Below, piece after piece: positions 6,862-22,834 of a stretch of DNA of 35,496 nucleotides. Position 1 is the stretch's first letter. Every line of letters begins with the position of its first letter. The position numbers were made by a program, and so were the translations under genes. The DNA comes from Bacteroidales bacterium (GTDB taxonomy: Bacteria > Bacteroidota > Bacteroidia > Bacteroidales > Prolixibacteraceae). The DNA lies in NCBI GenBank assembly GCA_031285325.1, contig JAITWJ010000138.1, positions 1 to 35,496 of the forward strand, read 5' to 3'. Under the pieces are notes generated by a model, which made no database searches, was not told the origin of the DNA, and worked only from the letters and a program-made list of their open reading frames with translations.

Positions 6862-6932
6862 ATTAGGGGGCAAGGGAGGTAATTTCTTTCATATTAAGTT
6901 GATTTACATATTTATATTTAGTGATTTTGGCT

Positions 6933-7096
6933 GTTGCTAAGGTTTAGCAAGCAGTGAATCGTGTCATTTGGTCGTTGCTAAGACTTAGCAGGCAGTAAAT
7001 CGTGCGATTTGGTTATTGCTAAGACTTAGCAAGCTGTGAATCGTGTCATTTGCCTGTTGCTAAGGTTTAGCAAGCCGTGAATCGTGCGTTTGCCAT
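6933..7096. repeat. Four tandem 41-bp repeats, each with a short hairpin
   Basis: Units begin at 6933, 6974, 7015, 7056; each contains TTGCTAA-(GGT/GAC)-TTAGCA(A/G). Confidence 0.9.
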
Positions 7097-7237: not shown

Positions 7238-7327
7238 AGGCATACTCTCTCTTAATATTCAATGTCCATTGTCAATTATCAATTGTCCATTGTTTTTCTA
7301 TGTTTCCCCGAAATTCAAAACAGTTTC

Positions 7328-8074
7328 TTACAATTTTATTTTAAAAAAATAGAATAAGATATTCAGAAGAATATATGCGAAAACACAGAAAATAAGCCCG
7401 TAAAATTTCAGGGAAAGTATCAATCCCAAAGATAAAATGAGAAAAATACAGCGAAACCAATTGTCTTCGAATTTAATTGTTTTAAACTTAAGCGAAAACA
7501 TGTGCAAGTTACTTACCATCATAATGGAAGTAAATAAGCCAAGAAATAATATTGCTTGAGTAGAGAAAATTATTTCAAATAAAACGTTGTTACCCGAATC
7601 TTCAATTATTAGTCCAAGCGAAGCCCAAATCAATCCATTGGCAGGTATGGGTAATCCTCTGAAAAAGGCATTATTTTCAGTACTTACATTAAACCGTGCT
7701 AACCTGATAGCTCCAAAAACAGGGATTAAAAAAGCTGAAAAAAGCGCCAACCACTCATACCAATTAGCCGAAATTTCGTAAACAGGCCGGTTTATTCCAA
7801 ACATCGAAAATTCGAGCAAAGTAAAAAATATAGCGCCCGGCGCAACACCGAATGAAACTACATCGGCCAACGAATCTAATTGTTTTCCAATATCGGAATA
7901 TGCTTTTAATAAACGTGCCACAAACCCGTCCAAAAAATCAAAAACTGCTGCAAGACAAATAAAAAATCCAGCCCATGCAAGGTGTCCGTCTATGGCAAAA
8001 ACAACAGCCGAAAAGCCGGAAACCAGGTTCAGGGAAGTAATAAAATTAGGTATCTGACTGATAATTTTCTTCAT
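7328..8074 (-). CDS. pssA: CDP-diacylglycerol-serine O-phosphatidyltransferase
   Basis: CDP-alcohol phosphotransferase signature DGFVARLLKAYSDIGKQLDSLAD; multiple TM segments. Confidence 0.93.
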   Translation of the reverse strand: MKKIISQIPNFITSLNLVSGFSAVVFAIDGHLAWAGFFICLAAVFDFLDGFVARLLKAYSDIGKQLDSLADVVSFGVAPGAIFFTLLEFSMFGINRPVYEISANWYEWLALFSAFLIPVFGAIRLARFNVSTENNAFFRGLPIPANGLIWASLGLIIEDSGNNVLFEIIFSTQAILFLGLFTSIMMVSNLHMFSLKFKTIKFEDNWFRCIFLILSLGLILSLKFYGLIFCVFAYILLNILFYFFKIKL

Positions 8075-19357: not shown

Positions 19358-20314
19358 TTAACGTTTTATTTCAACAAGCCTTATCGGCATGGTAGCCGGA
19401 ACAAGCCCCGACTTCAATACTATTCTCTGTCCCTGTTCGGCAGTAGCCCATTGTATGAAACCTGTACCGAGCCCTGCAAACGTTTCGCGCGATACGAAAT
19501 AAATTTCTCTTACAAACGGGTACGATTTTTCATAAATCGCCCCCAAATACGGGCGACTATATGTTCTATCATCTAAAAATTGATGCGATACTGCAAGAAC
19601 GTTAATTTTTTCCATAAAACTCATGCTAAGCGAATCTTTGCTATCGCTTATCCAGTTTACGCTAATAATACCAATGGCGTTTTTGTTCCTGCTTACAAAA
19701 TTTACAACTTCGGGATTGGTTCTCACAGCGTAGAAATTACCTGGCAAATTGCCGTTTATTCCAAACTGTTCTTTAAAATACCGTATATTTCCCGATCCGT
19801 TGTTGTCAAAAATTACCTGTATTTCGCCCAAGTCCGATTTCGGATTTATCTGATTCCAGTTTGTTATGTTTCCGAGAAATATATCTCTTACGGTGTTATA
19901 TTTCATCAGGGTATCGCGGTTATCCTTGTGTGTAACCAAAGCTAATGCGTCATATGCAAAAGTTACCGTACGCGCTATTACTAATGAATCTCTTAGATAT
20001 TGAGTTTGATAGTCTGTAAGTTTTTTACTGGTTACCATCACTTTTACCGAATCGTTCATAAAATCTTCCATTATGTCGTATTCGGATTTATACTGAGGCG
20101 TAATATATGCATTGGGGTATAAATGCGTAAAAGTAAATATTTCGGTTTCTAAAACAGGTTGAAACGATTCATCAACAGCTATTTTGATGTCGCCTCTTGT
20201 AGGCGTTTCGTTCAGTGGCTTGGCGCCCCTGTTTAAACAGGATGTAAAAAACACCACACCCGCCAAAGCTACAACAACACCTGGCAAAAACATTTTATAT
20301 TTATTTTTATTCAC
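19358..20314 (-). CDS. PstS-like substrate-binding lipoprotein
   Basis: SPII-like signal ending FFTSC; GDIKIAVDESFQPVLETEIFTFTHLYPNA, VIFDNNGSGNIRYFKEQF, NAIGIISVNWISD. Confidence 0.85.
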   Translation of the reverse strand: MNKNKYKMFLPGVVVALAGVVFFTSCLNRGAKPLNETPTRGDIKIAVDESFQPVLETEIFTFTHLYPNAYITPQYKSEYDIMEDFMNDSVKVMVTSKKLTDYQTQYLRDSLVIARTVTFAYDALALVTHKDNRDTLMKYNTVRDIFLGNITNWNQINPKSDLGEIQVIFDNNGSGNIRYFKEQFGINGNLPGNFYAVRTNPEVVNFVSRNKNAIGIISVNWISDSKDSLSMSFMEKINVLAVSHQFLDDRTYSRPYLGAIYEKSYPFVREIYFVSRETFAGLGTGFIQWATAEQGQRIVLKSGLVPATMPIRLVEIKR

Positions 20315-20592
20315 TGCTCGTTGTCTGTTTCTTCCTTGTCAAAAAAAAGTCTTTTTATCTGAAAGACTGCTTTAAATGTCCTGAAAGTTCCATAAATCAA
20401 GAATGCCGAACCTATAATTGTTCTTGTTTCTTTATCAATGATACTCTTCTCAAAAAAGAAAATAAGAAATATGCCTGCACCAATATAGAATACGATCATA
20501 AATATCGAAAATATTGAGGATATTTGCTGTAATATTTTATTATCGTCCATACCGCTAAAACTACTTAATTTTTTGAGCAAGCGAAGAAACAA
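20311..20592 (-). CDS. Small membrane protein, operon-linked (ATGA overlap) to the PstS-like gene
   Basis: Two predicted TM helices; 4-bp overlap; alternative start MDDNKILQQ at 20550. Confidence 0.65.
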   Translation of the reverse strand: MFLRLLKKLSSFSGMDDNKILQQISSIFSIFMIVFYIGAGIFLIFFFEKSIIDKETRTIIGSAFLIYGTFRTFKAVFQIKRLFFDKEETDNEQ

Positions 20593-20702
20593 AATAATAT
20601 TGAAAAAACAATACCTTATTGATAATTTTTTTAACTGATTAAGAAACTGTTTTGAATTTCAGAAAATATATAAAAACAATTGACAGTTGACAACAGGGAT
20701 GT

Positions 20703-20866
20703 CTGAACCACGATTTACAGGATTAAAGGATTGGCATGATTTTCTTTGTGAACTTTGAGTAAACTTTGTGTTCTGTGTGGTAAAATATAAACCACAAAGG
20801 GCGCAAAGAATTACGCAAAGGACACAAATCATATCAATCATTAAAATCATATAAATCACGATTCAG
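20703..20866. repeat. Nested palindromic repeat element
   Basis: CTGAACCACGATTTACAGGATTAAAGGATT... inverted against ...AATCATTAAAATCATATAAATCACGATTCAG; inner TTTGTGAACTTTGAG.../...GCGCAAAGAATTACGCAAAGGACACAAA. Confidence 0.7.
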
Positions 20867-21075
20867 CCTCTCTTTTAATTGTGAACTGTCAACTGTCAAT
20901 TGTTAACTGTCAATTAAAAAAGCGCAACATGCACCGAATTTTTAAATCCTTATTAGCCGCCGTACATTTACTCCCTGATAAGGCCAAGGCCATACCCGGT
21001 CAATACCTGGTCAATACCAAGTCCAAGTGAAACATAAAAAATTGACAATGGACAACTGACAATTATATAACGTAC

Positions 21076-21146
21076 CGTCACTGCGAGCTTGCGAAGCAGT
21101 CCAGAAAAACATCTGGATTGCTTCGGGCGTTGCCCTCGCAAAGACG
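21076..21146. repeat. GTCACTGCG-type palindromic element
   Basis: CGTCACTGCGAG (21076) / CTCGCAAAGACG (21146); inner GAAGCAGTCCAGA-aaaaca-TCTGGATTGCTTC. Confidence 0.75.
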
Positions 21147-21160
21147 TGATGGTATCACGG

Positions 21161-21317
21161 CTCCGTGAAAGTATCGCACACTACTGCACGAGGGTTTCAC
21201 AACCTTGTGAAAGGATTATGCAGGGGTGCATAAGGGATCACAACTCCGTGAAAGGATTATGCAGGGGTACACAAAGGTATCACAACTCCGTGAAAGTATC
21301 GCGCACTGCTGCACGAG
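21161..21317. repeat. Four tandem 41-42-bp repeats, each with a short palindrome
   Basis: Units begin at 21161, 21203, 21244, 21286 (CTCCGTGAAA/CCTTGTGAAA); palindromes TCACGG-CT-CCGTGA and TTTCACAA-CC-TTGTGAAA. Confidence 0.85.
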
Positions 21318-21520
21318 TCGCAAACCCTAAAATCACTAATTGTCAATTGTGAAGCAGTTTATGGAATGGTATCAAAAAAGCTTATCCTGTAAATTCAAAA
21401 CAGTTTCTAACTCCGAAAGTTTGTTAATTCTGCAAACTTAGATTCCTAAAATTTCCGTTTCAATACTTTTTTCAGTCTCGAGCAAGGCGAAATATCATTG
21501 TTTTGCCACACTAAAAAGTA

Positions 21521-22834
21521 ATGCTTAACAAATATAAATCAAAAATGATAAAACAGTGTATTATTACTTTAATGCTTACAAGCGTGTGCTTACAAGTGTT
21601 TTCGCAGCAAACAAACCATAATGTCTTGCGCCTTAATGTTTCTGAAGCAAAGGAATATGCGGTTCAACACAACAAGAATGTATGGAATGCCGGCTTGTCG
21701 GTGTCGGAAGCTCAAAAGAAAACGTGGGAGGCCATTTCGGCCGGATTGCCGCAAATAAATGCCAGCATAAATTATCAGAACATGATGGGTTTTAAAATGG
21801 AGTTTGCCGGAATGAGCATAGGGATGGTGCCTACAAGTAATTTTCAGGCGCAGGTTACACAACTGCTTTTCAGTGCAAGTTACTGGGTAGGCATTAAAAT
21901 GTCGAAAATTGGCGAAGAGATGAACGAAATAGCTTGGCAACAGGCAGAACTTGACGTTAAACACCAAACACAGTCGGCTTACTACACTATTCTTGTAGCT
22001 CAGGAAAATAAAGAGATTCTGGAACAAAACCTTAAAAATCTTGAAACAATAGCAAAAACTACCGAAGGGCTTGTTAATGCAGGCGTAGCTGAACAAACAG
22101 ACGTTGACCAAATAAAAGTGCAGATTCTAACAATGGCGAATATTATAAAATCGATAGAACGCAACATTGAACTTGCGTATAATTTATTGCGTTTCCAATT
22201 GGGTGTTGACGCTGATACCGAAATAGTATTGACGCAAACTCTGGAAGACGGATGTATTCCTTGCCAAAGCAGTGAATTGTTATTAAAATATATTGATCTG
22301 AATGACAATTATAACATGCAGTTGATTGAAGAACAAATAAATTTAGCAAATATGCAAATTGGACTCGAAAAGGCCGCAGCATTGCCAAATGTGTCTGCAG
22401 TGTACAGTTATACTTATAAAATTGCGAAATCTACTTTCGATATGTCGCCAAATCACGTAATTGGCTTACAGGCAAATATTCCACTTTTTGCATCTGGTCA
22501 ACGCTATGTAAGGACAAAACAGGCCAAAATAAATCTCGAAAAAGCCAAAAACGATCATGATTTGCTTACCGAAAATTTGTTACTACAAGAAAAACAACTG
22601 CGTTTTAACCTTAACAGTGCTGTAGAGGCACTTGAACAGCAAAAAGAGGCAATGGATGTTGCACAGCGCGTTTTTGAAAGTATAGCACGGAAATATCAGT
22701 ATGGAACAGCTTCAAGCTTAGACGTTACAACAGCAAATACAAGCCTTCTGCAAGCACAAAGCAATTATGTAAATGCTATGATGGATGTTTTAACGGCACA
22801 AACAGAACTCGAAAAACTGTTGAATACAATTTAA
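21521..22834 (+). CDS. TolC family outer membrane efflux protein
   Basis: Signal peptide; paired coiled-coil repeats; first gene of an adaptor/RND cluster. Start may be MIKQC at 21545. Confidence 0.9.
   Translation: MLNKYKSKMIKQCIITLMLTSVCLQVFSQQTNHNVLRLNVSEAKEYAVQHNKNVWNAGLSVSEAQKKTWEAISAGLPQINASINYQNMMGFKMEFAGMSIGMVPTSNFQAQVTQLLFSASYWVGIKMSKIGEEMNEIAWQQAELDVKHQTQSAYYTILVAQENKEILEQNLKNLETIAKTTEGLVNAGVAEQTDVDQIKVQILTMANIIKSIERNIELAYNLLRFQLGVDADTEIVLTQTLEDGCIPCQSSELLLKYIDLNDNYNMQLIEEQINLANMQIGLEKAAALPNVSAVYSYTYKIAKSTFDMSPNHVIGLQANIPLFASGQRYVRTKQAKINLEKAKNDHDLLTENLLLQEKQLRFNLNSAVEALEQQKEAMDVAQRVFESIARKYQYGTASSLDVTTANTSLLQAQSNYVNAMMDVLTAQTELEKLLNTI

Follow-up and report, generated by a model that had tools for sequence, protein, structure and literature searches.

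Repeat families are usually found by sequence similarity, and an array class in which only the period and the hairpin layout are kept escapes such searches. Among the described systems, the REP/BIME sequences with GTAG or CGTC tags are short palindromes clustered in intergenic regions (PMC3733652). Among the published repeats of the order Bacteroidales, BrickBuilt of Porphyromonas gingivalis (PMC4596501) comes nearest. Type III antitoxins are described in PMC8860590 as tandem RNA repeats. In TIGR arrays, palindromic units stand in tandem beside one gene, which in some cases is a solo Nop domain (PMC12045711).

The window, which is the whole stretch of 35,496 nucleotides from a Bacteroidales bacterium of the Prolixibacteraceae (contig JAITWJ010000138.1), contains two hairpin arrays (Table 1). 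It is concluded with high confidence that they belong to an architecture-conserved array class of Bacteroidota that is linked to the protein family DUF6261. The class is apparently undescribed: the literature searched contained nothing on 41/42-bp two-hairpin arrays, and BrickBuilt was found instead.

Table 1. Coordinates of the features in the window.
Feature	Position	Strand	Description	Basis
MITE-like composite element	20642..21408	.	767 bp, contains the window array	TIR pair
Left terminal inverted repeat (TIR)	20642..20659	+	AGAAACTGTTTTGAATTT	perfect 18-bp pair
CGTC-type REP-like palindrome	21076..21146	+	CGTCACTGCGAG...CTCGCAAAGACG	family name after PMC3733652
Hairpin array (window array)	21155..21319	.	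4 units, spacing 42/41/42, order A-B-B-A	TRF, direct repeats
Hairpin P1, unit 2	21195..21212	.	TTTCACAACCTTGTGAAA	sequence
Hairpin P2, unit 2	21216..21233	.	TTATGCA-GGGG-TGCATAA; 21.0 bp from P1 centre to P2 centre	sequence
Right terminal inverted repeat	21391..21408	-		perfect 18-bp pair with left end
Sister array	6926..7089	.	4 x 41 bp; TTGCTAA-loop-TTAGCAA and AATCGTG(C)GATT-type hairpins	TRF score 217, fold z -5.4
Right TIR of the element holding the sister array	7311..7328	-	left end not recognised

The direct repeats of the window array start at 21155, 21197, 21238 and 21280, and TRF reported a period of 41 with a score of 150 over 21193-21296. The preliminary description, which had proposed four units in the order A-B-B-A, was therefore right on both points: units 1 and 4 are 90% identical and units 2 and 3 are 85% identical, against 60-65% for unlike units. 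The two palindromes named there were also located. TCACGG-CT-CCGTGA lies at 21155-21168, and TTTCACAA-CC-TTGTGAAA is hairpin P1 of unit 2. Hairpin P2 of the same unit was absent from that list. Both hairpins are perfect only in unit 2; units 3 and 4 have an imperfect junction hairpin (TCACAACTCCGTGA). Folded as single-stranded DNA, the window array is moderately better than shuffles (z -1.9, 7/200). No DUF6261 gene adjoins it, and an Rfam covariance-model scan of the window gave 0 matches. The window array is a somewhat degraded example of the class, to which it is assigned because of its period, its hairpins, its element ends and its similarity to other arrays of the same genome.

The sister array, described earlier from position 6933, is present with a period of 41 and four units, and it folds strongly as single-stranded DNA (0/200 shuffles). 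The A-B-B-A order ascribed to it comes down to the loop bases GGT/GAC/GAC/GGT only.

The element around the window array occupies a divergent intergenic region between an ORF at 20311-20592 (-) and a TolC-like ORF at 21521-22834 (+). Its 18-bp TIRs face outward, and the window contains three matches to them against 0.3 expected. Genome-wide, about 104 such ends were found at up to two mismatches, with 0-1 in the control. Elsewhere, such ends form pairs separated by 160-860 bp. Outward AGAAACTGTTTTGAATTT ends (at most three mismatches) are carried, at least one per array, by 23 of the 45 arrays of this genome, and inward ends by none. The 22 paired TIR elements that were read are 162-1536 bp long and are mosaics of blocks, which include REPs, AATTGAC repeats and arrays. 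AATTGAC/TCAATTG heptamers are seen in the window at 20880-20915, 21040-21066 and 7259-7293, and recur near REPs and arrays throughout the genome.

The TIRs, short size, non-coding sequence and high copy number of the element agree with those of a MITE. The target-site duplication typical of MITEs was sought across the 22 paired elements, and no consistent one was found. None of the five DDE_Tnp_1 genes in the draft assembly, the family searched for a parent transposase, has the TIR pair. As neither a duplication nor a matching transposase was found, the element is no more than MITE-like on available evidence.

Inside the same 767-bp element, a CGTC-type REP adjoins the window array. The preliminary description had asked whether the arrays sit next to GTCACTGCG elements. 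This association is modest: 13 of 45 arrays lie within 400 bp of one, against 5.5 +/- 2.1 for random intergenic positions, in a sample that is partly biased, since some of it was fetched with a REP-containing BLAST query. The arrays are more strongly associated with the TIR-bounded element, in this genome, and with DUF6261 genes, across the phylum. The Y1 transposase (RAYT, PF01797) had 0 matches in the genome, and the positive controls were detected.

The period was surveyed in 481 kb of this genome, made up of the window and two groups of stretches that were picked by contig number, mostly blind to repeats; the array surveys refer to sampled stretches. Of 48 non-redundant tandem arrays of all periods, 26 have a period of 40-44. 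The period 41/42 and its multiples dominate the tandem repeats and account for about half of all arrays. This enrichment with palindromes, together with independent genomes, bears out the earlier proposal that the class is defined by architecture rather than by sequence. The A-B-B-A order, proposed as a class feature as well, is incidental, as it was seen in 2 of 55 four-unit stretches against 3.7 expected.

In the arrays, units of 41 or 42 bp follow one another head to tail, 2-12 per array, and the sequences differ from array to array. Two layouts were recognized. The TTGC class follows TTGC-nnn-loop-n'n'n'-GCAA (17 nt, 3-nt loop, period 41), and the TTTC class follows TTTC-nnn-loop-n'n'n'-GAAA (18 nt, 4-nt loop, period 42). 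In both classes a second hairpin lies half-way along the unit. Units tend to have two fold-back hairpins with 3-4-nt loops, whose centres are 20.5-21 bp apart where both are clear. Genome-wide, adjacent pairs of TTGC-N9-GCAA occur 90 times and those of TTTC-N10-GAAA 50 times, against 0 for reversed control patterns. The class is also present elsewhere in the phylum Bacteroidota. Outside the genus of the window, the clearest TTGC-type 41-bp arrays are in the genome G062, and one of them adjoins DUF6261. Genomes of the same genus (L123-L125, L084, L085) have 42-bp arrays (TTGCCGCAGC..., TTTGCTACCCTG...) with no DUF6261 seen beside them. Arrays of a single ~22-bp palindrome (e.g., AAAAGGTGCGCACCTTTTACCC) were observed at L053:9821-9964, L058:2424-2607 and L075:11230-11357; they are perhaps a monomeric form of the two-hairpin unit.

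The stems covary. In the TTGC class, the two outer variable stem pairs are 97-100% complementary (29-30% expected), and in the TTTC class the inner stem pairs are 78-94% complementary (31-35% expected). For 18 hand-picked stems, of which 17 are types of this genome and one is from G062, the covariation score is 0.541, against 0.086 for shuffled and at most 0.082 for slid sequences, with 98.4% of the cells paired. At separations of 1-3, that is, at the start of the loop, complementarity falls to chance or below, and this central drop recurs in arrays of other genomes. Identity within arrays is 0.94 in stems, 0.81 in loops and 0.87 in the rest.

Since complementarity stops at the loop, where a duplex operator has no reason to stop, fold-back of one strand is implied, and the palindromes are hairpins rather than duplex dyads. 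Operator-like duplex dyads were rejected, as the symmetry ends at the loop in this and in other genomes. The same interruption is unlike a dyad bound as duplex by general chromosome proteins. Architectural sites of the BIME kind, serving gyrase, IHF/HU, the nucleoid or transcription ends with DUF6261 as a bystander, would fit dyads every 20.5-21 bp, or two helical turns, as well as multi-copy intergenic arrays near REPs. This reading is considered very unlikely, also in view of the strong DUF6261 link described below, which is seen in genomes with few other arrays.

Neither strand is favoured by the mismatches in stems (on the gene-sense strand, G-T 107 and A-C 93; further counts of 8:10 and 24:12), and no tetraloop type recurs among the array hairpins. 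Selection at the RNA level through a wobble bias is thus unsupported by the 107 G-T against 93 A-C mismatches. The simplest reading is that the hairpins are formed by the DNA, with RNA as a less simple alternative.

Correction of quasi-palindromes by template switching could yield the same paired changes. The arrays may be plain minisatellites, functionless passengers of intergenic regions that undergo hairpin-driven replication slippage and have their stems paired by such correction. Paired changes with free loops are the expected trace of hairpin-templated correction, the MITE-like ends fit, and only 5 of 45 arrays fall for the most part within ORFs of 150 aa or more, which make up 80% of the sampled DNA. 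Slippage alone, however, does not explain why arrays of unrelated sequence in several classes of the phylum keep to a period of 41/42. Nor does it place arrays upstream of one gene family, and this explanation is regarded as improbable.

The link with DUF6261 is seen in the largest TIR element (C6:10534-12069), which contains a REP, a 41-bp array and a 245-aa ORF whose only Pfam match is PF19775 (DUF6261). In this genome, an array is located directly upstream of all four intact DUF6261 genes and of two of three remnants. In other genomes, DUF6261 genes were found by protein profile only, and arrays were sought afterwards. Of 72 DUF6261 genes in Bacteroidales, 50 are preceded by an array at a distance of up to 700 bp, against 7 arrays in the rest of the sequence (336 kb). 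The same is true of 9 of 16 loci taken from different orders and classes of the phylum. In the combined set, a 40-43-bp array lies in the 700 bp ahead of the gene in 57 of 86 cases. Of the 29 remaining loci, which have no TRF array, 15 show their best self-match at lag 41/42 of 56 lags, where about one is expected; 14 of the 86 loci have no 41/42 signal. The array background is 2 per 200 kb in other genomes with DUF6261; where DUF6261 is lacking, it is 0 per 120 kb.

There are several paralogous DUF6261 loci per genome, and the array unit sequence varies from gene to gene. The palindromes of about half of the 50 upstream arrays are not significant individually. At two loci (L161 and L162, on C17 and C107), DUF6261 is cut to its first 38-42 codons and the upstream array is intact; there the arrays outlast the gene. 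TIRs were rejected as a general feature of DUF6261 loci: here the C6 copy alone is flanked by a pair, and 18 loci of another genome, G253, have no common flanks beyond the gene. The MITE ends look lineage-specific.

Free-standing arrays are common in this genome and in G253, and the background is low otherwise. The complete genome G253 has about 25 arrays per 400 kb, a density as in this genome, and only two are near DUF6261; arrays therefore also exist without DUF6261. Some of its 42-bp repeats may be coding. Two readings fit G253: its arrays have dispersed away from DUF6261, as in this genome, or DUF6261 is one partner among several. Two G253 arrays (L238:8237-8514 and L248:13648-13736) adjoin two related Cro/C1-type HTH_26-like proteins, one of which scores just under the Pfam cut-off. 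Two others (L241:3784-3988 and L253:10157-10512) lie beside genes for a distantly related pair of helical proteins, of which one has a CarboxypepD_reg-like tail; the pair may be a further family associated with arrays.

DUF6261 is predicted, with high confidence, to be all-helical (pLDDT 96), and R74 is its most conserved residue. No convincing relative by sequence or fold was found in the PDB or among viral models, and the fold search revealed no DNA-binding relative. The matches to solved structures and in fold searches were dismissed as helical-bundle noise, and those in PADLOC and NCBIfam as scattered, weak and limited to single members. In the literature searched, only one paper, on an unrelated matter, mentions DUF6261. 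A guide-RNA stem-loop array of the TIGR kind with an unrecognised Tas-type effector is suggested by the palindromic units beside one gene. It is hardly credible, because the Nop domain (PF01798) is absent from the genome by HMM, a comparison of the DUF6261 model with the PDB gave nothing at E<=0.001, its top 50 matches include no Tas/Nop chain, and the identity values given above leave no hypervariable spacers.

A system in the style of type III toxin-antitoxins, in which the array gives tandem small RNAs that neutralise or regulate the downstream DUF6261, is unlikely. It would account for ~41-nt units directly upstream of one gene, for gene-specific arrays at several paralogous loci per genome, and for hairpin loops of at least 3 nt. 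The mismatches lack the G-U preference and the loops the recurring tetraloop that such RNAs would lead one to expect. In addition, the all-helical DUF6261 has neither a solved relative nor a convincing padloc model match, no terminator lies between array and gene at the one locus scanned, and many free-standing arrays of this genome have no gene. The RNA system and the functionless hairpin minisatellites are the main rivals to the favoured explanation, in which the array is a platform for DUF6261.

In many genomes, the usual site of such an array is just upstream of a DUF6261 gene. In the favoured explanation, in single-stranded or negatively supercoiled DNA, the array would extrude a regular row of small hairpins. 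What is recognised may be the shape and spacing of this row rather than its sequence. The protein most likely to recognise it would be the cognate DUF6261, which is all-helical and would use the row as a cis platform for autoregulation or for maintaining the array. Each array would be homogenised by slippage and by hairpin-templated correction, which would also alter its stems pairwise. Free-standing arrays appear to have multiplied in this genome and in G253, about half of those here having one or both TIR ends, and MITE ends may disperse them in this lineage, if the elements are mobile. The explanation as a whole, with array class, platform and MITE dispersal, is evenly balanced between being right and wrong. 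Slightly more doubt attaches to the proposal of a new two-part system of Bacteroidota, composed of DUF6261 and its own upstream 41/42-bp two-hairpin array, the two co-evolving pairwise and the array recognised not by sequence but through its geometry, at two hairpins for roughly four helical turns, with free-standing arrays as dispersed derivatives. The binding-platform mechanism of array and cognate DUF6261 is tentative and rather doubtful.

A phylum-wide array class coupled to DUF6261 is the first functional handle on this family. The many natural array-protein pairs per genome are a test bed for the recognition of DNA shape, for homogenisation, and for a regulatory, selfish or defence role.

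The comparison with known systems is as follows. With type III toxin-antitoxins (ToxIN and its kin), the DUF6261 loci, though not the window array, share a gene-specific tandem array directly upstream of a single gene. They differ in that the protein is all-helical, matches only DUF6261 in Pfam and is no recognisable ToxN/AbiQ-type endoribonuclease, in that the array period is constant across the phylum, and in that there is no sign of RNA-strand selection. TIGR-Tas (PMC12045711) is alike in its tandem palindromic units beside one gene, whereas the arrays here have neither a Nop domain nor spacers that vary from unit to unit. For BrickBuilt (PMC4596501), the available excerpt reports neither a two-hairpin grammar nor a link to DUF6261. 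As described there, BrickBuilt is likewise a multi-copy intergenic tandem repeat of Bacteroidales within inverted-repeat ends; its unit is 23 nt with one common consensus (AGAYCATARTATCCTCTCRTRTG) and a fixed leader and tail, in contrast to the 41/42-bp units of unrelated sequence here. REP/BIME sequences (PMC3733652) are similar as short clustered intergenic palindromes, and a CGTC-type REP is part of the same element. REPs are, however, defined by a common sequence and a tag, whereas the arrays here share their period and layout and differ in their stems.
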